From the IMG/VR virus record IMGVR_UViG_3300003892_000013, positions 16,398-40,439 of that record: a DNA stretch of 24,042 nucleotides; one strand, written 5' to 3'. A program made the translations under genes and the position numbers. The stretch is from a virus. Of this stretch, positions 1 to 21,910 are shown piece after piece (position 1 is the stretch's first letter; the number at the start of each line of letters is the position of its first letter). Under the pieces are notes generated by a model. That model saw nothing but the letters and a program-made list of their open reading frames with translations. It was not told the DNA's origin and made no database searches.

Positions 1-886
1 ACCTGCACGGGCACGTGCCGGGCGTGTCTTGCCAGATAGGAAACGTGATGCTTCTAGCGATACAACCGCTGCTGAAGTCCACTGAGTACGTAGATGAGCG
101 CCAGTGGCTTCCTGGGCTGAACCGGCTAGGAAGATACGTTCCTTGGCATGTGCAATTTTATTATAGGCAGATAGGCTGATTGGATCTAGAATTAGACGAT
201 CAGCTGCGCCCATATTCATTGCTGAACGAACAGAGGCGTCTTCAATGATGGACTGTGTTAGCGTACCGCCGGCAGAAAGGACTACGGTCTGATCAGATCC
301 ATACTCAGCAAACATAAGATCCTGAGTATTTGACTGAGCATCTGACTGGCGAACTTGCTGATCAACGCCAACCATATTGGGAACCTTAGCTATCAGCAAG
401 AGGGTTGCCGTCGAATACCCCAGCGTTTGAGAAGTCTGACTGACCACGGAAGCAGTCAAATTCAATATCGCCAGCTAGTTTCATCGCAGCATCGGCTGAT
501 GCACGGTCTTCGGCTTTTACGCCATCAAATGCACCAATCATATTTGCTGCTACGGTCACTCTACGGATTGTGCTGTAATACGCCATAGGAACTACCGCAC
601 GAACATAGCTGGATACATCTTCTTCACCAATTCCGCCTTCAAACTGTGCGGAACCCCCAAAGATGCCGTAATCAAGCTGCCTATTGAACTGATGTAGCTG
701 TGACTTGACATCCTTAGAGGGAAGGATTTTCTGTAGTTTAATATGTGAATCGTCGAAAGTGACATTCTGCATGACTGGCGATAGATCTTCTACCATCAAA
801 GCAGCGCCCTGTTCGAGATTCTGTGGAGCAGCCATATAACTGCCTGCTTCCAGGGCTTTCATAAGAGATTGAAGTTGTTCGATCAT
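1..886 (-). CDS. Major capsid protein, frameshifted and cut by the left edge
   Basis: This gene encodes the main shell protein of the phage head. The first frame runs 886 to 386 (166 residues). A second frame, +1 relative to the first, is open from 474 to base 1 and continues the protein without a stop (VPNMVGVDQQVRQSD onward). I therefore read one gene broken by a single-base shift near 386-400. Residues 10-30 hold a motif (KALxAGSxMAAP then NLxQGAAL) of the kind seen at the N-terminus of SPO1-like capsid proteins, where the maturation protease cuts; it recurs in the protease gene at 3185. The body (HIKLQKILPSKDV, QFNRQLDYG, RRVTVAANMIGAFDG) looks like a large myovirus capsid. The start has a strong ribosome site (AAAGGAGAA). 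The gene lies 30 bases after the scaffold-like gene. The family call is from recognised pattern, not a search. Confidence 0.8.
386..400 (-). other. Frameshift junction in the capsid gene
   Basis: Reading the minus strand, the first frame ends N-P-L-A-D-S-stop (TAA at 388-386). The next frame gives I-A-K-V-P-N-M-V-G-V-D and stays open to the window edge. Skipping one base, either the G at 394 or the T of the stop codon, joins them cleanly. There is no homopolymer at the site and no Shine-Dalgarno-like stimulator just upstream. It may be a sequencing or assembly indel, a real mutation, or programmed +1 shifting at the TAA. Confidence 0.7.
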
Positions 887-916: not shown

Positions 917-1876
917 TTATTTAAGCAGGTGGCTGATACTATTAACGTTTACTTGCCCATTTAGGTAATAACTATTGATTGCCTCACGATCAGATTTCTG
1001 AAGTGATGGATCACTAGCTTTTCTTAGAAGAATTGCATTAATTTCACTTTTGGTAAGCTGTTTCCTTCCATCGCCTTCGCTTTTGGCGACTACGTCTAGA
1101 GAGGTAATAGCCTTACCTTCAGGTGCAGTTTTCTTGACCAGCTTGGTCAAGAATTCTGTGATAGCTTCAAAGTTCTTCTTAAGATTTTCATTTTCAGACT
1201 TAAGAAGCTGTAGTTCCGTTGCTTCTGTTTTTTCCATATTTTTTTCCATATCACTTAGATTTTTCTGATCCTCACTGGCAGGAGACTTAGCTCCAAGAGC
1301 GCCTTTTGGCTCGCTAGGCGATATTTCGCCACCGCTACCATCGGATTTCTTAAGCTTTGCCTTAATCTGCTCAGCACTAAGACCATGTTTAGCTATTTTA
1401 TCCTGTTCTTTACTAGCATCAGATACAGGCCCTTTTGCTCCACGAGGAGCCTTGCCTTCTTCTATGCATTTCATGATCGCATCATGATGGGCTTTTAGTT
1501 CACCTTTACTCATTGAGCGATACATTTTATGCATATGCTCTATGTCTTCATCGTCATAGTCGTGACATTCGTCATCGTCATGACTCTTGTCATCGTGGGC
1601 TTCTGCTTCATCTTTTGATTTAGCTTCATCAGCTTCATCAGCCTCTTTAGCTTCTTTAGCTTCTTTATCTTTATCAGTTGATTTATCTTCTTTCTTTTCT
1701 TCATCTTCGGATTTTTCAATCTTGGACTCTTTATCCTTTTTCTTATCCTCAGATTTATCTTCGCAATCCTCTGATTTAGCTAATTTGAAAGATTCTTCAG
1801 ACTTAGACAAATGAGCAGTAAACTCCCTTTCCACATCTTCGATAAGCTTCGCAAGCTCTTTTTCGGTATACTGCAT
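917..1876 (-). CDS. Acidic, lysine-rich capsid-associated protein, probable scaffold
   Basis: The protein has 319 residues. Residues 1-90 are almost pure K, E, D, S and A. A His/Asp-rich stretch (DDKSHDDDECHDYDDED) follows at about 94-111. A likely coiled coil sits near 215-255 (LLKSENENLKKNFEAITEFL). The K-S-E triplet recurs seven times from end to end. No catalytic motif is visible. The position directly ahead of the capsid gene, the extreme charge and the coiled coil suit a head scaffold or internal core protein, but this is inference from context. The start is supported by GGAGAGGT upstream. The DNA of the low-complexity part is a run of imperfect 9-base repeats. Confidence 0.55.
   Translation of the reverse strand: MQYTEKELAKLIEDVEREFTAHLSKSEESFKLAKSEDCEDKSEDKKKDKESKIEKSEDEEKKEDKSTDKDKEAKEAKEADEADEAKSKDEAEAHDDKSHDDDECHDYDDEDIEHMHKMYRSMSKGELKAHHDAIMKCIEEGKAPRGAKGPVSDASKEQDKIAKHGLSAEQIKAKLKKSDGSGGEISPSEPKGALGAKSPASEDQKNLSDMEKNMEKTEATELQLLKSENENLKKNFEAITEFLTKLVKKTAPEGKAITSLDVVAKSEGDGRKQLTKSEINAILLRKASDPSLQKSDREAINSYYLNGQVNVNSISHLLK
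1605..1676 (-). repeat. Imperfect 9-base tandem repeat inside the scaffold-like gene
   Basis: On the plus strand the units are GCTTCATCA, GCTTCATCA, GCCTCTTTA, GCTTCTTTA and GCTTCTTTA at 1623-1667, with degenerate units on each side. The 9-base period keeps the reading frame and encodes the triplets DEA and KEA. Slippage here would change the length of the charged tract without breaking the gene. Confidence 0.75.
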
Positions 1877-2537: not shown

Positions 2538-3182
2538 ATGAAAGACTTTTTTAGACGATGTTTGAAATGTAGGAATGAAAAACCGTTAAATGAATTCTAT
2601 AGAGATCCAAAAAGTCGAAGCGGATTTTATCATAGATGTAAGCCATGTACTGATTTTTATTACAAAAAATGTTCTAAATGTAAAGAAATCAAGTCAAAAG
2701 ATAGATTTTATAAAAACAAGAATACTAAGGACAAACTAGAATCTTGTTGTCGATCATGTAAGGGCAAAGAGAAAGAAACTTTTGATACCTATTTTGCTCG
2801 ACATAAAAAAGAGATTATAAAAGCACATAATGACAGGGAGCGTAAAAGAAAAAAAGAAGATCCTATTTTCAAAATAAAACAAAATCTAAAAACAAGGCTT
2901 GCTACTGCCATAAAACGTTCTCGATGGAATAAGACTGCTAAATTTAATGAATATATAGGCTGCTCATTAGAAGAATTAAAGAAACATATAGAGAAACAAT
3001 GGGAAATAGGAATGAATTGGTCTAATTATGGAAGATATAAGAATTGTTGGAGTATAGGTTATATTTATCCACTGTCTTTATGTAAAGATGTAGAGACTGC
3101 CATAAAAGCTTGCCATTATAGTAACTTAAGACCTATGTGGCATCAGGATAATATGAAAAAAAGCAATAAAACCAATCTTTAA
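2538..3182 (+). CDS. Zinc-finger HNH-type homing-like protein, catalytic motif lost
   Basis: The protein has 214 residues. Two tandem zinc-binding units come first: C8/C11 with C34/C37, and C45/C48 with C71/C74, each CxxC-x22-CxxC. The C-terminal half (140-211) matches the phage HNH layout: IGCSLEELKKHIE, then GMNWSNYG, then NLRPMWHQDNMKKSNK. In active members the core reads WHIDHIIPL. Here it reads WSIGYIYPL (171-179), so the metal-binding and catalytic H, D and H have become S, G and Y. DNA binding may persist, but cutting is unlikely. Such genes are usually free-standing mobile elements in phage genomes. It ends 2 bases before the protease start and may have been kept for regulation. Confidence 0.75.
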   Translation: MKDFFRRCLKCRNEKPLNEFYRDPKSRSGFYHRCKPCTDFYYKKCSKCKEIKSKDRFYKNKNTKDKLESCCRSCKGKEKETFDTYFARHKKEIIKAHNDRERKRKKEDPIFKIKQNLKTRLATAIKRSRWNKTAKFNEYIGCSLEELKKHIEKQWEIGMNWSNYGRYKNCWSIGYIYPLSLCKDVETAIKACHYSNLRPMWHQDNMKKSNKTNL

Positions 3183-3184
3183 GT

Positions 3185-4786
3185 ATGTCCACTTTTATTC
3201 ATGGTATAGCCGCTTCTGAAAATATTGATAGTTCTGGCGAACGTATTCTTATGAGCGGTTTGGATATCTCAACTCTTGAAAAAGACGGCTGTTTTAATTG
3301 GGAACACCAAGGTAAAAGTCCAGACCAAGTAGTCGGTAAAATTTTAAAGGCTAGAAAAATTTTTTCTGAACAAGACTGTGAGGATGATCATCAAAGATAT
3401 TTTTGGGATAAGGTAAAAACACCCTATTTATATGTAATGGGTGAACTTTTTGATGATTATACCGATTCAGCTAGGGATGTTGCCGGTAAATTTAGGTACG
3501 ATTTTGATAAAAAAAATCAAAATGAACGTCCAATAATGAATTTTTCCATTGAAGGCGCTAAAATTGATAAAAAAGGTATAGATATCGTAAGATCTATTGC
3601 CAGAAAAGTAACAATTACGGTTTTACCGTGCAATAAAGTTGCTATGGCCGAAATGATTGTTTCGGATAATAAACCAAAAGATGATTTAGATAATATTTTT
3701 AAGGCCGAAAATAAATTTGAAATTGAATTATTTAAAGATGAAAAATCTGAACTATTTTCCCTACTTAATAAAAAAGAAGACCGTAGTATACACGCCAATA
3801 AGCTCGGCGTAGATCCAATAGAAAAAGAGGGATTACAAATTACCGGTGCCCCTCAATCTGCTCCGGCCTTGCTTGGTTCTGAAACAATAAATAAAGCTCA
3901 GGTTCCTGGCAGTAAATATTCACCGTCTGAATCTGTTCAGTCTAAATCTCCTAGCAATAAATTTCCTAAATTTGGTCCAATTTCTACTAAGTCTCGTGAC
4001 CTAGGTAAACAAATTGGTCAAACCAAAAGCGGAAAGGCCGTAATGAGCCATGCTAAGCCATTAGACTATAAGGGATGGTCTGCCCAGGATCATCGAGATG
4101 CTGCCAATATTCATTACGCGCACGCCGAAGAAGGTAAGGGAATTCCAGGGGCTACACATTTCGATACTGCTAAACGCCATATGGCCATAGCCGGTCGTGA
4201 GGAAAGGCGGCAGGCTGTAATGGCCGCCAGACGTGCCGCTGCCTTGTCTAGGGCCGATATAAACACTTCTAGAATGAATCGTTCTTTGCCCACAATGGAA
4301 CATCCAGCAATGATGCCTCCTCCTAGCTTTCCGGATAAAGCAAGGGTTGCTAAAGCCTTATCTGCCGGTTCTGCAATGGCCGCCCCTGGTAACTTAGTTC
4401 AAGGCGCTGCCCTTGGAAAAGAAAGCATTAATAAAAAAACAAAAAACAAGTGGCTTGCTCGTGCTGAAGAGGAATACTCTAAATGGGATAAAAAAGAAGA
4501 ATTTAGAAAATATATGTCTCATCGTCTGCCTCATCTTACTAAAGGTGAAATTGATGCTATTGGTCAAGTATTAGCCCTCAGTAAGACTTTACAAATGGAA
4601 AGATCTCTTAGGAAACTCAATAAGCAATATTCTGCTTATGAGCCTATTCATAGTTATACGGTTAAAAATGAAAAACCTGTTGAAAAATTTGACGATGTAG
4701 TAATGGGCGTTGCCGCAAAAGGTTCTGATATTTTAATGGCGCATGAACCTAATTCTAAAAAACTAAAGAAATTATTCCCCTTCTAA
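3185..4786 (+). CDS. Prohead maturation protease with long C-terminal extension
   Basis: The protein has 533 residues. The N-terminal 160 fit the XkdF/T4 gp21-like serine protease fold: a likely catalytic His in FNWEHQGK (H41), and the serine motif MNFSIEGA (S121) followed by RKVTITVLPCNKVAMAE. It would cleave scaffold and capsid N-termini inside the prohead. Beyond about 165 the chain is hydrophilic. Residues 302-340 hold two related helical units (DHRDAANIHYAHAEE, then HFDTAKRHMAIAGREE). Residues 390-410 repeat the capsid N-terminal motif (KALxAGSxMAAP, NLxQGAAL; 17 of 21 identical). The extension may act as a built-in scaffold that the protease itself removes. The ATG lies just after the HNH stop without a clear ribosome site, so translation may be coupled. 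Confidence 0.75.
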   Translation: MSTFIHGIAASENIDSSGERILMSGLDISTLEKDGCFNWEHQGKSPDQVVGKILKARKIFSEQDCEDDHQRYFWDKVKTPYLYVMGELFDDYTDSARDVAGKFRYDFDKKNQNERPIMNFSIEGAKIDKKGIDIVRSIARKVTITVLPCNKVAMAEMIVSDNKPKDDLDNIFKAENKFEIELFKDEKSELFSLLNKKEDRSIHANKLGVDPIEKEGLQITGAPQSAPALLGSETINKAQVPGSKYSPSESVQSKSPSNKFPKFGPISTKSRDLGKQIGQTKSGKAVMSHAKPLDYKGWSAQDHRDAANIHYAHAEEGKGIPGATHFDTAKRHMAIAGREERRQAVMAARRAAALSRADINTSRMNRSLPTMEHPAMMPPPSFPDKARVAKALSAGSAMAAPGNLVQGAALGKESINKKTKNKWLARAEEEYSKWDKKEEFRKYMSHRLPHLTKGEIDAIGQVLALSKTLQMERSLRKLNKQYSAYEPIHSYTVKNEKPVEKFDDVVMGVAAKGSDILMAHEPNSKKLKKLFPF

Positions 4787-5275: not shown

Positions 5276-5340
5276 ATTTACCTCTTGATTGATTAGTGTA
5301 TATTCGGATATTATATAAAATAAGATTATTTGGAGGTTCG

Positions 5341-6165
5341 ATGGACGTTAAGGTTTGCAATTTGCGATCAAATGATTTTGAAGAAAATTTGATTTATTCG
5401 GTCAGAAATACTGGTTTTGCGATTATTACACATCATGGCATCGATCATTCCTTTATCAAAGAAACTCAAATGGCCTGGAAAATTTTCTTTTTAAATAACA
5501 ACTCTTATAAAGAGTTATATATTAATTCTGTTGATCCAAATATGGGTTACAAAGGTTTTAAAAGCGAAAAAGCTTTAGGTGCTGAAAAGGCTGATTTGAA
5601 AGAATTTTTTCATTGGAAACCTGGACAAAAGATACCTTATGAGGTTTCTACACTTACGCAACACATGTTTTATCAACTTGAAGATGTGTCAATGAAAATA
5701 TTGGGAGTGTTAGATAGACACTATGATATCCCAAATCCTGGCTTTCAAAATTCTTGTTTAGATAGTGACAATACTTTGCTAAGAGCATTATACTATCCGG
5801 CCCTTAATTTTGATAATGAATCAGGAGCCGTTAGAGCCGCTGCTCATGAAGATATTAATTTTATTACTCTTCTTGTAGCCGCAAGTGCCCCTGGTCTTCA
5901 GGTCAAAGATAAAAACGGTAGATGGCATGACGTACCGCATGAAGATAATAGTATTACAGTTAATATTGGAGATATGCTTCAGTTAGCTTCTGGAGGTATG
6001 TATAAATCTACTACTCATAGAGTTATTAATCCAGATAATTATAACTCAGATCGTGTTAGTATTCCTCTTTTTGTTCATCCGCATAGTAATACACTGCTTG
6101 CGGATGGAATAACCGCTAAAAAGTTTCTTGAACAGCGTTTGGATAAAATTTATCAAAAGGTGTAA
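5341..6165 (+). CDS. 2-oxoglutarate/Fe(II)-dependent oxygenase, isopenicillin N synthase-like
   Basis: I start it at 5341, where GGAGG sits 5 bases upstream; an in-frame ATG at 5296 has no such site. The protein then has 274 residues, close to the family norm of 280-330. The N-terminal DIOX_N-like part is NTGFAIITHHGI (23-34). The iron ligands are HED (H169, D171) and H226 (STTHRVINP). The co-substrate residues are in DRVSIPLF (R238, S240). The enzyme would hydroxylate, desaturate or cyclise a small molecule, or modify a protein or base; the substrate is not visible. It heads a three-gene plus-strand cassette set among head genes. All metal and co-substrate residues are intact, so it is probably active. 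Confidence 0.85.
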   Translation: MDVKVCNLRSNDFEENLIYSVRNTGFAIITHHGIDHSFIKETQMAWKIFFLNNNSYKELYINSVDPNMGYKGFKSEKALGAEKADLKEFFHWKPGQKIPYEVSTLTQHMFYQLEDVSMKILGVLDRHYDIPNPGFQNSCLDSDNTLLRALYYPALNFDNESGAVRAAAHEDINFITLLVAASAPGLQVKDKNGRWHDVPHEDNSITVNIGDMLQLASGGMYKSTTHRVINPDNYNSDRVSIPLFVHPHSNTLLADGITAKKFLEQRLDKIYQKV

Positions 6166-11194: not shown

Positions 11195-14100
11195 TTAGTC
11201 CATATTCCAATAGAACCCCCCCTTTTTTCCAGTACCTCGTGTACCTTTGGGGGTATCTGCAACACGCTTAGCTATTTCTTCTTTCATTTGCTGTGAATGG
11301 GTAGGATTGGTACTTTGCTGAACATCTTTTAATTGTTCTTCTGTCCATACTACATCTGGTCTGAATGACCCTTTGACCGGCCAAACATTTTGACCTATAT
11401 AACGTAAAGCGTCACAAATATCTGCAATGCCGCGCTCATCATCGGGCTTTAAAGTGACATTACCTTGTCCGTCAAGTTGAAATCGATGTTTACTAATAGC
11501 ACTAATAGCTTTTTTATTTGATTCATTTAGTATGACTTTAAACAGGCGTTTACCAGAAGCATTTGTTATTTTAGATCGTACCGCCTCAATACCGCCAAAT
11601 ACATCCTTTGTAAATGGAGGGCATTTCATGCCGTTTTTAATAAACGATTTAATATGCTGTGGATACGCTGTATCTGCAAACCATTTTACAACGTTATATT
11701 TATCTCTGAATGTCTTAGCTATTTCTAGCTGATCTACGAATTCAAGTCCTGGAGCCGCATATGTTTCCATTAGCCATACCTCTTCATTAGGAAGCACAGC
11801 GCAAATTACAATTACGAAATCGTGTATATATCCCCAGTCAACACCGGCATAGAATGAGATTCCTAAATTTTTCATTTCTTGGATTAAAGTAATATCTGTT
11901 ATTACACGCTTTGTAGGACCAAAAAGTGATTCATAGGCTTCTTTGGTGGTAATAACATTGCCTTTACCAGGTGTAGATACAAATCGTGGATAAACTAGAC
12001 CAGCAGAGCCCGGCTTCCAACACATTAATTGTGCCTCAGCAGTATCGGCATCATTTTCCGCAAATTTTTGAATAATCGAACTAATTGGCTTATAAAAACC
12101 ACCAGTAGCTGTTTCAGGCTTTTTAGCCAGTCTACCCTTACAAACAGGTAACAATGGGCATTTGGCGCATCCAGCGTATGCTTGAGGTATTAATTCCCAT
12201 TTAGATTTTTCAATATCAGGGATAGCCTCATATTCCTCTTTAGAAATTTGTTGTAACGGAAGATTTTTAAGTACATAACGATCTTCTTTTGGTTGGTCAG
12301 GTAGATGCCTTTCTTTAGGACATCTTTCTGTAACGTCAATGATATTCCAATTGACTATTTTATAATTCATTTGTGGCGCTTTTTCAATAGCTTGAGCCAT
12401 ATTGCCAAATGCATATTTGCGAGTAGAAAGATATACTTTTACTCCATGAATACCTTTACTATAGCCTACGATATTAACCCCTTCTTTAAGCGCTTTTGGA
12501 TCGGCCAGATCTAATTCGTCAAGAAATAAAACATTGGCATGTAAAGAATTCATGCCCTTTGGATTACAAATCACTATTTTAATAAATGGTTGCTTACCTT
12601 GTGGGGTTTTAAATCTAAATACACGCTTGTTTTGTGTAATATTTTCCCAGCCAGCCTTAGTCATAAGAGGCTCTACTTTAAGTAAAAAGTTTTCAATATA
12701 ACCAAGACCAACCGACGATTGCTCTTCAGTAGCAGCGGCATGTCCAATTTCTAGTTGGAAATGAAGTAAAAGTAATAATTCAAGAATAGCAACGGAAATT
12801 GTATTATGACTAATTAATCCGTTAGACCAATAGGAATGTTCATTTTCTACTGTTAAATCATAAAAATATTGAAGACCGGCATCTTCGACATTAAAAGTTT
12901 TCCACTTATTAAGTAGTATTTTTTTATATCTATTAACTACTTCTGTATCTTCTTTAGTAGTTAGTCCATTTGCTATATTTTTGTCCATCCATGTAATTAA
13001 TTTAGCAATTTTGTCATATGTAATCCCACGATTACATTGTTTAATTATTGGTTTTTTATATTTATTATTTTTAGTAAGTTTAGAATATTTGTCACTAATA
13101 TTAAGCAAATCTTTTATTTGAGAATAAGGCAATACGTCTTTATAGTTATAGGATTTTGGATTATTATTCTTTGTTATTTTTTTAGATTTGAGAATAATGT
13201 TTATTTTTTCTAATTTTCTGAGTTCGGCTTGATTTATTATAAGCTTACTAATTAAATGTTTTTGTAATTTATATTTTTCTTGATTATGTTCTACCCTAGA
13301 TTCAATTCCTAATGCCGCTAAAATAATCTGTATTTCATTAAAAAAAGAGCTATCGACAGTTTTAAGAAATCCGTCGCCATTTTTGCTCCAGGACATTTTT
13401 GTATCAAATAATCCAGCTATAAACCCTTTTATGGAATCTATGTGGCTATATATAAACGAAGGGACCCTTTTCCCCCATAAATAACTATGTGAAAGATCCC
13501 ATGATTTCAATAAATTAATCTCTTTTTTGTTGTACGTAATAAATTCGATGCTGTTTTTTAATATATTAAGCTTACCATTCGGAAAATATTCTTTACAAAA
13601 TGTTATATAAAATTTAGTAATATGAGGATTTGTATTGGTTAATATAAATTTATTATGCTTATCTATTAAAGATAAATCACCATTTCCAACTAATAAGCCC
13701 AAAAAGTAGCCAATCGCGTATTCTTTTGTCTCTACGCATGATTTAGACGGAGAAAAATTAATATCTAAATTTAGACAGATCAAATCGGTTTTGGGATTTA
13801 AATCTTTGCTTGCGATCCATTGTTCTTTGCCGTTTCTTAAACACCAATATCTATGTATAGGGGTTCCTGTTACTTTAAAGCCACCGTCTACATTAATAGT
13901 TAGTCCAGGCTTCATGCCTTCATAAAAAGTTTTGGTAACCTTTTGCCAAGAAAATCCAGTCCAAATAATATCCCCTTCTTTTACATCCTCTATATTTTTG
14001 AGACTATTTAAGCATATGATTTTAGTGCCCTTTTTTTGACATTTCATTCCTTCACGACAACTCATTAAAATATAGCCAGGATTTTTATCTCCGCTATTAT

Positions 14101-14296
14101 TTTTAAAAGTTTCATAAATCTGCCAAATAGCGTCTAATGGACTAGAATTGCTGTCGGGATCTGTAATTTCTAATGGGATATCCAAACCCAGGAAAAACAT
14201 CGCCCAATCTTTGATTTCTTGTGCCGATGAAAGCGCACCAAACATTAGGTCGGTATATTTTTGTTTTTCTGAATCATCTAGTATGCTAAAATCCAT
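11195..14296 (-). CDS. terL: Terminase large subunit interrupted by an intein
   Basis: The DNA-packaging motor has an ATPase and a nuclease domain. The reading frame is 1033 codons; removal of residues 86-498 leaves 620, normal for TerL. The Walker A region is SCREGMK (79-85) joined to T499. Walker B is VLFLDELD (acidic D593, E594). The RNase H-like nuclease has GVDWG (D820), FADTAY (D875) and ERGIADICDALRY (D959, D962). Between the domains is a four-cysteine cluster (C659, then CAKCPLLPVC at 710-719). The residue before the Walker A lysine is Met instead of the usual Gly. The ATG directly follows the groEL stop (TAA-ATG), so translation is coupled. A slippery A-AAA-AAG followed by G lies near the 3' end (11216-11228). 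Confidence 0.9.
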   Translation of the reverse strand: MDFSILDDSEKQKYTDLMFGALSSAQEIKDWAMFFLGLDIPLEITDPDSNSSPLDAIWQIYETFKNNSGDKNPGYILMSCREGMKCQKKGTKIICLNSLKNIEDVKEGDIIWTGFSWQKVTKTFYEGMKPGLTINVDGGFKVTGTPIHRYWCLRNGKEQWIASKDLNPKTDLICLNLDINFSPSKSCVETKEYAIGYFLGLLVGNGDLSLIDKHNKFILTNTNPHITKFYITFCKEYFPNGKLNILKNSIEFITYNKKEINLLKSWDLSHSYLWGKRVPSFIYSHIDSIKGFIAGLFDTKMSWSKNGDGFLKTVDSSFFNEIQIILAALGIESRVEHNQEKYKLQKHLISKLIINQAELRKLEKINIILKSKKITKNNNPKSYNYKDVLPYSQIKDLLNISDKYSKLTKNNKYKKPIIKQCNRGITYDKIAKLITWMDKNIANGLTTKEDTEVVNRYKKILLNKWKTFNVEDAGLQYFYDLTVENEHSYWSNGLISHNTISVAILELLLLLHFQLEIGHAAATEEQSSVGLGYIENFLLKVEPLMTKAGWENITQNKRVFRFKTPQGKQPFIKIVICNPKGMNSLHANVLFLDELDLADPKALKEGVNIVGYSKGIHGVKVYLSTRKYAFGNMAQAIEKAPQMNYKIVNWNIIDVTERCPKERHLPDQPKEDRYVLKNLPLQQISKEEYEAIPDIEKSKWELIPQAYAGCAKCPLLPVCKGRLAKKPETATGGFYKPISSIIQKFAENDADTAEAQLMCWKPGSAGLVYPRFVSTPGKGNVITTKEAYESLFGPTKRVITDITLIQEMKNLGISFYAGVDWGYIHDFVIVICAVLPNEEVWLMETYAAPGLEFVDQLEIAKTFRDKYNVVKWFADTAYPQHIKSFIKNGMKCPPFTKDVFGGIEAVRSKITNASGKRLFKVILNESNKKAISAISKHRFQLDGQGNVTLKPDDERGIADICDALRYIGQNVWPVKGSFRPDVVWTEEQLKDVQQSTNPTHSQQMKEEIAKRVADTPKGTRGTGKKGGFYWNMD
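12803..14041 (-). mobile_element. Intein in the terminase ATP-binding loop, homing nuclease degenerate
   Basis: This is a 413-residue protein intron spliced out after translation. Splicing residues are all present: Cys at position 1 (C86 of the frame), the block B TPIH (T145-H148), terminal SHN (H497, N498) and Thr499 as the first downstream residue. Inside is a LAGLIDADG homing nuclease domain with both helices recognisable: GYFLGLLVGNGDL (196-208) and FIAGLFDTKM (292-301). The catalytic acids are replaced by N205 and K300. The element should splice but probably cannot cut DNA to spread. It lies exactly between the Walker A Lys and Thr, so the terminase has no ATP site until splicing is complete. 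Confidence 0.9.
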
Positions 14297-16066
14297 TTAT
14301 GGTCTTTCATTGGCTTCGTTTACAAAATTATGCGGATGTTCTACGGCCCTCATAAAATCCGCATCAGCCTTGGCTTCGCTCCTTTCAAAAACTTCATCCC
14401 TTGGGTGACATACGATACCGCCCATCGTACCTAGAACTGTAGCAATACTAATGGCGTTTACAAGAGATTCTTCTACTGCTTTAGTTGCATCAAATAAGCC
14501 AAGTTCTTCTGCTTTACCAAATTTTTCGTTTTCAATGTCATAAACTAATTCTCTATCGTTTATTAATTTAGCTAAAATATCTTCTATTTCTGATGTATTG
14601 TAACCCGCATTGTCCAGCAAAGTAGTCGGTAACGCGAGCAAGGAAGGCGTAAGGACTTCTCTCGCAGGATCACCTTCTGGTAATTCTTGTGTAAGTTTCA
14701 TGGCCATGTCCAGAGATACGCGGCAACCGCCCGGTAACGCCCCATGAGAAATAGCCGAACGAACAGCGCATACGGCATCTTCACAACGATCATGAGCCTC
14801 TTTTAATTCACCATTGGAACCGCCATAAATAGTAAGTTTAGCGATTCCATTGGTGATTTTACCAATGCGTTCTTCTAGAAAAATCTTTTCAGCTTGGCTT
14901 TCTGCATTTTCTTTCATTTTTTTAAGTTCTTCTGCACGAACCTCAACGTTTACTGGATCTGGATCACCAATTACAGTGCTACGAAAACGATAACATTCAA
15001 AACTTTCCATACCAGCCCCAAGATCCTGTATAGTAGCAGTGCTTACTTGATCCTTAAGACCAAATACCTTAGCTCCAGTAAAGGCAGCTAAATCATATAA
15101 AAAATGAGTTTGGCTATTTAGAAATTGAGCCATAGGGGTCATTACTGGTAATACATTAATAGTACCAGGATTAGCGAAATTAAAGGCTAAGGTAGTAAGT
15201 ACATTTTCGCTGAATCCATGGGCAAAAATTACTATATTTTTAAAATCAGCGTTGCCTTCTACATATTTAGTGCCAATGGCGGCCAGTAATGGATCTATGG
15301 TTATTAGATCATTTAATGTACCGTCATATAAGAGAAATAAAGGCTTTTCTAGAAAGCAACGCTGATTTGCCTGGTCATTAATGAACGCATTATGCAATTT
15401 GCCAATACTTTCTTCATAACCAATTGGGATAGGAAATCCATCAATTCTTTGTACTTTATAACCCGGAGTGCCAGAAACTTCGCGAATAGTGACATGTGAA
15501 GCATCTCCATAGCCAATTTCTTCAAACGCCTGAATAACTGCATCGGCCATCTCTTCGTCACCGTTTGCAGAAATCTTGGCCACCATTTTAAGCATTTTCT
15601 TATTTTCTTCTCCGATAAGAATACTGCGAGAACGAATATAAGGAACTAAGATTTCTCTGGCCACTTTAGAGATTTTGCGGGCAGCCTTTTGAGGGCTGTA
15701 TTTTGGATTGTTCTCACAAAATTCAAATAGATTAGAAATAATATTATAAGCTAAAACTGTGGCTGTGGTGGTACCGTCTCCAGCCTCCGTTGCGGTGCGT
15801 TGAGCAACATCACGCGCTTGCTCTATAATAAGATGCTTATAGGCATCTATGGCACCTAAACTTTTAAATACAGTAACACCGTCTTTAGTATTTTTATTGG
15901 GAATGCCCGGATAATCGCTTTCAATCAAAATATTTCTACCGCCCGGCCCAAGAGTTCGGCCCACCATTGCGGATACTTCACTCATACTATCAAGGACTAG
16001 ATTTTTAAGTTTTTTCTGATCCGTTAGAAATATTTTGGGAGCACTTTTTGCTTTACGATGCGCCAT
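14297..16066 (-). CDS. groEL: Phage GroEL-type chaperonin
   Basis: The protein has 589 residues against about 548 in E. coli. It folds proteins in an ATP-driven ring. The equatorial domain is well kept: TLGPGGRNILIE (38-49), KDGVTV (D62), AGDGTTTATVLA (D97), ATP-hydrolysing D430 in DRCEDA, GALPGG (442-447) and DATKAVEESLVNA (526-538). The apical domain is very different: the substrate-binding stretch of E. coli (RGYLSPYF) is replaced by DGFPIPIGYE, and the APGFGDRR region has no match. The C-terminal GGM tail is missing. It is the first gene of the head operon, with AGGAGA before ATG, so it is probably made to fold virion proteins. A GroES-like gene lies at 18658. Confidence 0.95.
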   Translation of the reverse strand: MAHRKAKSAPKIFLTDQKKLKNLVLDSMSEVSAMVGRTLGPGGRNILIESDYPGIPNKNTKDGVTVFKSLGAIDAYKHLIIEQARDVAQRTATEAGDGTTTATVLAYNIISNLFEFCENNPKYSPQKAARKISKVAREILVPYIRSRSILIGEENKKMLKMVAKISANGDEEMADAVIQAFEEIGYGDASHVTIREVSGTPGYKVQRIDGFPIPIGYEESIGKLHNAFINDQANQRCFLEKPLFLLYDGTLNDLITIDPLLAAIGTKYVEGNADFKNIVIFAHGFSENVLTTLAFNFANPGTINVLPVMTPMAQFLNSQTHFLYDLAAFTGAKVFGLKDQVSTATIQDLGAGMESFECYRFRSTVIGDPDPVNVEVRAEELKKMKENAESQAEKIFLEERIGKITNGIAKLTIYGGSNGELKEAHDRCEDAVCAVRSAISHGALPGGCRVSLDMAMKLTQELPEGDPAREVLTPSLLALPTTLLDNAGYNTSEIEDILAKLINDRELVYDIENEKFGKAEELGLFDATKAVEESLVNAISIATVLGTMGGIVCHPRDEVFERSEAKADADFMRAVEHPHNFVNEANERP

Positions 16067-21046: not shown

Positions 21047-21910
21047 ATGAAAAAAATAAAGTGGATTGTAACTATCTTTGTAATAATGTTTACGCTGGCA
21101 TCGGCCCCTATTGTAACGTCGTCGACAAGAAATGGAACGTCTGATTCTGAAAAAATTATTACATTAACAGACAATAATGTTCTTGTTTTAAATGCGCCAA
21201 TAGATTCTGATAGTGTGGCGAGAGTTATAATTGAAGCTAGAAGATTAGACTCCCTTTTATTTCATAGAAACGAACCCATCTATCTTTTTATGAATACCCC
21301 GGGAGGTAATATCCAGTCTGGGCTAGAGCTTTTAGAGGCTCTAAAAGGTTTGCATAGGCCAGTTCATACGATATCCTTATTTTCCGCTAGTATGGGTTTC
21401 CAGCTAGTGCAAGGTCTTGGAGATAGATTAATACTAAAAAACGGCGTAATGATGAATCATCACGCTAATGGTCAAATTTCTGGCGATTTTGGCGGTGTTG
21501 ATACACAATTAGATAGTCGCTATAAGTTATGGAAAGACCGTCTTCGTGAACTTGATGAACAAACTGTCAAACGCACTAATGGCAAACAAACATATGAAAG
21601 CTATTTGAAAGAATATGATCATGAAATGTGGCTAACTGGTAAACAATCGGTAGATAAAGGCTATTCTGATAGAATTGTCCGTGTTCGTTGTGATGATTCA
21701 TTGGACGGAACAAATACTCAATCTATGCAAATTTTTGGTTTTACTGTTCAATATGATTTAGATAAATGCCCCTTAAATACGACCCCAATGAATATTCGGC
21801 CAATGATTGATGATAAAAAAATGTCTCCAGAAATGAAAAATGAAATAAAGGCTAGATTTTTGGAATCATTTACGCAGAAATATCGTCGGCCACTTCCTAT
21901 GACATGGTAA
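21047..21910 (+). CDS. ClpP-like serine protease with signal peptide
   Basis: The protein has 287 residues. The first 20 form a signal peptide (MKKIKW, hydrophobic IVTIFVIMFTLASA, likely cut after ASA). The ClpP fold follows: NTPGGNIQSG (83-92, oxyanion loop), FSASMGF (catalytic S115), MMNHHANG (catalytic H138 or H139) and the YDHEMW region with an Asp at 191, then the usual LTGKQSVDKGYSDRIV end. ClpP of bacteria is cytoplasmic, works with an AAA+ unfoldase and lacks a signal peptide. Here export to the periplasm or cell surface is expected. After residue 215 there is an extra C-terminal part of 70 residues. The ribosome site is AGGAG. The target is unknown. Confidence 0.8.
   Translation: MKKIKWIVTIFVIMFTLASAPIVTSSTRNGTSDSEKIITLTDNNVLVLNAPIDSDSVARVIIEARRLDSLLFHRNEPIYLFMNTPGGNIQSGLELLEALKGLHRPVHTISLFSASMGFQLVQGLGDRLILKNGVMMNHHANGQISGDFGGVDTQLDSRYKLWKDRLRELDEQTVKRTNGKQTYESYLKEYDHEMWLTGKQSVDKGYSDRIVRVRCDDSLDGTNTQSMQIFGFTVQYDLDKCPLNTTPMNIRPMIDDKKMSPEMKNEIKARFLESFTQKYRRPLPMTW

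Follow-up and report, generated by a model that had tools for sequence, protein, structure and literature searches.

Head genes and their products in the window

The 24,042-nucleotide stretch of viral DNA analyzed here (hereafter the window) comes from an IMG/VR record of 42.8 kb. Its head genes resemble those of Myxococcus phage Mx1 (57% identity for the capsid and 38% for the protease), with SPO1 and other Herelleviridae as more distant relatives. In the window and in homologues alike, the prohead protease gene sits in a head module with portal, scaffold and capsid genes (Table 1).

Table 1. Capsid, scaffold and protease features of the window.
Feature	Position	Strand	Basis
Predicted capsid propeptide, residues 1-10 (MIEQLQSLMK), lost at maturation	857..886	-	Homology to A511 K23|S24; predicted here
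Capsid motif copy K10-L30; predicted cut K10|A11 at the 857/856 base junction	797..859	-	BLASTP, shuffles; P1 Lys in 44/44 distinct capsid copies
Predicted mature-capsid N-terminal arm (residues 11-41), common to protease	764..856	-	Similarity to residue 41; conservation footprint
Major capsid protein, 166 codons before the frameshift; reading goes on in 1-465 (-)	386..886	-	PHROG 752 major head protein, 3e-17
Scaffold-like protein, 319 aa, highly charged; precedes capsid on same strand	917..1876	-	
Prohead protease, 533 aa	3185..4786	+	PHROG 1028, 7e-5; homologues annotated prohead protease
Protease catalytic domain, residues 1-160, H41 and S121	3185..3664	+	AlphaFold pLDDT mostly >85; invariant H and S; herpesvirus assemblins as weak fold match
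Further predicted self-cut K173|A174, just past catalytic domain	3701..3706	+	K in 35/36, P3 mostly L/I; predicted here
Ordered insert domain, residues 270-365, in the interval from catalytic domain to motif	3992..4279	+	AlphaFold
Protease motif copy K390-L410; predicted self-cut K390|A391; predicted disordered	4352..4414	+	pLDDT ~46; K390 invariant in 36/36
Helical C-terminal domain, residues 420-483, after motif	4442..4633	+	AlphaFold pLDDT mostly ~90; same layout in L114

The capsid frame has a one-base frameshift near positions 392 to 396 relative to L004 and intact relatives, downstream of the motif described below, and a second, compensated frameshift pair lies further on. The frameshift (386-465) is likely a sequencing or assembly error. 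An Endonuclease VII-like gene (2538-3182, +) immediately precedes the protease gene. Elsewhere, the window carries a 2OG-Fe(II) oxygenase (5296-6165, +), a large terminase split by an intein that has a LAGLIDADG endonuclease domain (11195-14296, -), a phage-encoded GroEL/Cpn60 chaperonin (14297-16066, -; Pfam 5e-36) and a ClpP-like protease with what looks like a signal stretch at its N-terminus (21047-21910, +).

The match of the window protease to PHROG 1028 (head maturation protease) includes no stretch that passes alone, and no Pfam match was found for this protein. The putative catalytic residues H41 and S121 are invariant among the Mx1-like proteases (group A1). In Herelleviridae-type proteases (group A5), K15, H62, S117 and K156 are each present in 56 of 56 sequences, and a serine follows the post-catalytic K156 in 52 of 56; the K|S sites of these enzymes (the vertical bar marks the cut) are conserved as strongly as the catalytic H62 and S117. 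The best PDB matches of a relative, L114, are herpesvirus proteases and T4 gp21 (5jbl), with weak E-values of 1e-3 to 0.05, and the model of the window protease gives a weak fold match (2e-2) to the pseudorabies protease. In both models the motif copy is disordered and leads into an ordered helical domain. Some proteases exceed 1200 residues and have long, unexplained C-terminal extensions (L037:2361-6077, L058:396-4481, L060:12959-16678).

The capsid N-terminus and the protease share a conserved motif

Residues K10 to L30 of the capsid and K390 to L410 of the protease are identical at 17 of 21 positions, and the numbers given for this match by a first-pass annotation of the DNA, including its residues, its coordinates and the second copy at 4352-4414, all proved exact on recount. 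When the protease was shuffled 500 times, the best 21-residue match reached 9 identities (mean 7.3), and BLASTP of capsid against protease aligns 19 of 32 identical residues (E = 5e-7), wherein the similarity extends past the motif to about capsid residue 41. The shuffles, along with conservation across relatives, rule out chance similarity. The annotation was also right that the pair is not a recent DNA copy, because only 5 of the 17 identical residues use the same codon and 11 differ at the third position. Indeed, the two copies are identical at only 36 of 63 bases, which rules out recent copying or gene conversion as the origin of the motif.

A profile of the motif matches the capsid N-terminus and the protease in nearly every relative. 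The motif search in related phages that had been proposed as a check recovered exactly two copies, one in the capsid and one in the protease, in all 18 large Mx1-like records (128-177 kb, Mx1 included). Of 12 Herelleviridae-type records, 11 gave the same result and one had an additional weak match (E = 0.08). Because none of the 18 large Mx1-like records has a further copy, a role as a general head-protein tag is ruled out. The pair is present in Herelleviridae (SPO1, A511, 812/K), for example as KALEAGHTVNPLDLEGGGAFRVESL / KSLEAGYEVDPEKMEGGDVFRKESL in SPO1 and KSFTTGYGITPDTQTDAGALRREFL / KSWTTGHGTTPDTQVNAGALRRESL in A511, and in many environmental phages. In a wider survey of 81 usable, non-redundant phages, 57 have the pair at z of at least 5, and in 20 of the other 24 a reduced copy retains the two ends, K[A/S]L...ESL (shuffled rate 0.002). 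The motif pair is thus far more widespread than the single window in which it was first noted.

Related phages with the motif in only one of the two proteins, which the first-pass annotation had regarded as evidence against its reading, are seen only as a few exceptions. The complete proteases of L046 and Bacteroides phage SJC03 are without the downstream part of the motif, and L050 is degenerate. Because those two proteases are complete, the downstream element is not essential everywhere. Sequences near that place, IVK|SI in L046 and LLK|AS in SJC03, still fit the pattern [LIMV]-x-K|[S/A], with the L046 lysine aligned to K390 by MAFFT in a placement that may be coincidental. One contig (L003:3648-5336, L021:4066-5754) encodes a protease in which the motif occurs twice, at open-frame residues 231 and 295.

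A short lysine code marks the predicted cleavage sites

In the A511 record (DQ003638.2), the mature capsid is annotated from codon 24 (..EDALK23|S24FTTGYG..), which places its start directly after the lysine that opens the motif. The A511 protease has the same K|[A/S] junction (..ETFMK|SWTTGHG..). The P1 lysine is present in 44 of 44 distinct capsid copies and 55 of 55 distinct protease copies, a tally that sets aside L052, whose lysine was out of register; P1' is A, S, T or G, and P3 is mostly L, V, I, M or F. Among the 36 Mx1-like proteases, K390 is the only invariant column.

The same junction is abundant in scaffolds. The scaffold-like protein of the window has 13 K-S dipeptides compared to 5.3 expected (p = 0.0006), and KS is the most enriched of the tested dipeptides in the scaffolds of two families (355 versus 146.5 expected, z 18.6; 82 versus 33.6, z 9.8). 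A hydrophobic residue at P3 accompanies the enrichment in both families; in the first, L, M, I or V occupies P3 at 268 of the 355 KS sites. No K-S enrichment was found in control portals and capsids. The code [LIMV]-x-K|[S/A] is therefore common to scaffold, capsid and protease, whereas the 20 to 25 residues downstream of it are absent from scaffold.

Because the mature A511 capsid is annotated to start at K23|S24, the A511 protease has the same K|[A/S] junction and the scaffolds carry [LIMV]-x-K|S, we predict cuts in the window proteins at K10|A11 of the capsid and K390|A391 of the protease, wherein the rest of the motif would stay on the mature capsid. A peptide from phage K virions, (K)SFQTGYGITPDTQIDAGALR(R), indicates that the arm is kept on the mature capsid, although trypsin could also yield this peptide (PMC5258805). 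Cutting seems not to require the downstream residues, because scaffold sites are without them.

These findings alter the original proposal that the motif is the recognition or cleavage site of the protease, with one signal serving both to mature the capsid and to remove the protease's own extension. The A511 capsid start, the invariant lysine and the scaffold code argue for a cleavage site, and the same K|[A/S] is found in both proteins, but the predicted cut lies at the edge of the motif and the motif itself is not cut off. A mature capsid that keeps residues 1 to 35, which would have spoken against that proposal, is contradicted for A511, where residues 1 to 23 are lost by annotation. The code also predicts the mature ends of the capsid, scaffold fragments and protease in many genomes that have not been studied.

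The downstream residues co-vary between capsid and protease

The conservation footprint of the motif reaches P20'-P25'. In 10 of 12 lineages the best match to the capsid copy is the phage's own protease (p = 5e-5), and in L055 the capsid and protease copies carry the same insertion. Among 81 further phages, the capsid-protease centred score is 23.5 relative to a permutation sd of 1.57. The co-variation persists after controlling for similarity of the catalytic domain and capsid body (p = 0.0005), in permutation tests that do not fully model phylogeny. Matrix regression for the driver or docking partner did not separate the capsid body from the catalytic domain, which are correlated at 0.90. 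Sequence comparison led to the solved capsid of SPO1 (9vel) and to one other capsid (5lii).

Since the downstream part is absent from scaffold sites yet co-varies between capsid and protease, a second function for it appears to be needed, and cleavage alone would not explain its 20 to 25 residues. We suggest that this function is a docking or arm role shared by the two proteins. The other possibility raised by the first-pass annotation, a tag that brings both proteins into the prohead, thus seems to hold in part as well.

A proposed two-part element for maturation and protease docking

We consider it likely that the motif is a two-part element, wherein a maturation cleavage site shared by both proteins stands at the start and an arm sequence follows the cut, the protease copy of which would dock the enzyme inside the prohead. 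The prohead protease would cut after lysine at [LIMV]-x-K|[A/S/T], freeing the capsid of residues 1 to 10 at K10|A11, digesting the scaffold at numerous positions that carry this short code, and cutting itself at K390|A391 in the disordered stretch before its helical C-terminal domain. The 20 to 25 residues after the cut would then form the N-terminal arm of the mature capsid, a matched copy of which the protease would carry on its C-terminal propeptide. During assembly both copies may bind a common partner, most simply the site that the capsid arm occupies on the capsid lattice or core; arm binding would bring the protease into the prohead ahead of its self-release. A common binding partner seems most likely because the copies co-vary and the scaffold sites are without the downstream part. 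The two copies, their conservation and co-variation, the K-S enrichment, the predicted disorder and the A511 annotation are shown by the data, whereas the cuts in the window proteins and the docking are inferred.

More tentatively, and with somewhat less confidence than doubt, we propose that the protease mimics the N-terminal arm of the mature capsid, docks at the arm sites and then cuts itself at the junction that matures the capsid, such that one co-evolving element would couple protease incorporation to capsid maturation across a wide group of myophages. How prohead proteases enter the prohead and are activated on time is poorly understood beyond a few model phages, and with a co-evolving copy of the capsid arm, docking becomes a concrete, testable hypothesis for phages like SPO1, A511 and phage K and for environmental relatives.

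The main rival to docking is an extended substrate, wherein an exosite on the protease reads the whole 25 residues with high affinity and thereby sets the order of cuts, the scaffold sites being of low affinity and no docking to the capsid taking place. A common cut site opens both copies, and their co-variation is what would be expected of two substrates of a single enzyme; in the models, the protease copy is disordered and accessible. We nevertheless regard this explanation as unlikely, given that the conservation to P20'-P25' runs well past the usual protease subsites, that the scaffold sites of the same enzyme are without the downstream residues and that the capsid stretch runs on into the capsid body.

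It is more doubtful still that the motif acts as a timer rather than a targeting tag, with the freed C-terminal fragment, through its capsid-like N-terminus, filling the arm sites or inhibiting the protease. The predicted new N-termini of the two products are similar, a helical domain directly follows the motif, and the protease is listed among purified JS1 virion proteins in a source that does not state which part is present (PMC12977511). In SPN3US, however, the C-terminal propeptide has a proposed targeting role (PMC7411985).

That same SPN3US precedent, a C-terminal propeptide proposed as a packaging signal, would suit a pure targeting tag without cleavage at the motif, as would the length and co-variation of the downstream part. 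The A511 mature capsid start, the invariant P1 lysine with a small P1' residue and the K|S code in scaffold make such a tag very improbable. An old, functionless duplication that has not yet decayed would leave two clearly related copies, but it is scarcely credible when the motif is kept while its position floats from about 211 to 546 within a hypervariable linker of the Mx1-like proteases, the copies co-vary within phages and share the L055 insertion, and reduced copies retain their two ends in 20 of 24 cases, against the shuffled rate of 0.002.

Comparison with known head maturation systems

The head module of Herelleviridae (SPO1, A511, phage K/812) is like that of the window in its set of portal, protease, scaffold and capsid, in its homologous capsid and protease, and in the paired motif with a P1 lysine, wherein K|[A/S] is followed by 25 related residues in both proteins. 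Unlike its Herelleviridae counterparts, the window protease reaches 533 residues, has an insert domain and a long, variable linker, and carries its motif at residue 390 rather than at about 164-170. Gene order and strands differ as well, and an endonuclease gene is inserted.

The proteases of HK97 and T5 likewise cut after lysine and before serine or alanine (TFNK|SL in HK97 gp5, HLK159|A160 in T5). We take the HK97 gp5 cut to be at K103|S104. In HK97 and T5, a capsid delta domain takes the place of a separate scaffold. T4 gp21 recognizes a hydrophobic P3 followed by a fixed P1, and a single code serves capsid, scaffold and internal proteins. The HK97, T5 and T4 proteases show no comparable copy of the capsid residues that follow the cut, and the lack of a copy at the corresponding place rules out the motif pair as a general HK97-type feature. 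In HK97 (L248), a weak similarity (z 4.5) joins the gp5 capsid cut region to the N-terminal/catalytic region of the gp4 protease, away from the motif place, and is probably chance or family constraint. In T5-like phage DT57C, the first 160 capsid residues are removed (PMC10713586).

Autoprocessing prohead proteases are already known, whereas a paired, co-evolving copy of the capsid arm was not found described in the literature searched; specifically, our search, with the SPO1 and A511 genome papers outside its scope, yielded no published description of the capsid/protease pairing. The protease gp245 of giant phage SPN3US removes its own C-terminal propeptide at A-X-E, the short code of its substrates (PMC10052503), and this propeptide is the proposed means of carrying the protease into the prohead (PMC7411985). 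The code [LIMV]-x-K|[S/A] is similar in form to this A-x-E code and to the T4 code, and has the same K|S as HK97. Unlike in the window protease, P1 of gp245 is glutamate rather than lysine, and no capsid-arm copy is seen for gp245 in the portions of these sources at hand.

Capsid targeting sequences of T4 are described in PMC7411985. A T4-type targeting sequence is ruled out for the motif by homology to A511, whose annotated cut lies before it, and to phage K, whose virions keep it (PMC5258805). The T4 sequence forms an N-terminal propeptide and is removed, whereas the shared element of the window type lies after the predicted cut and would stay on the capsid.
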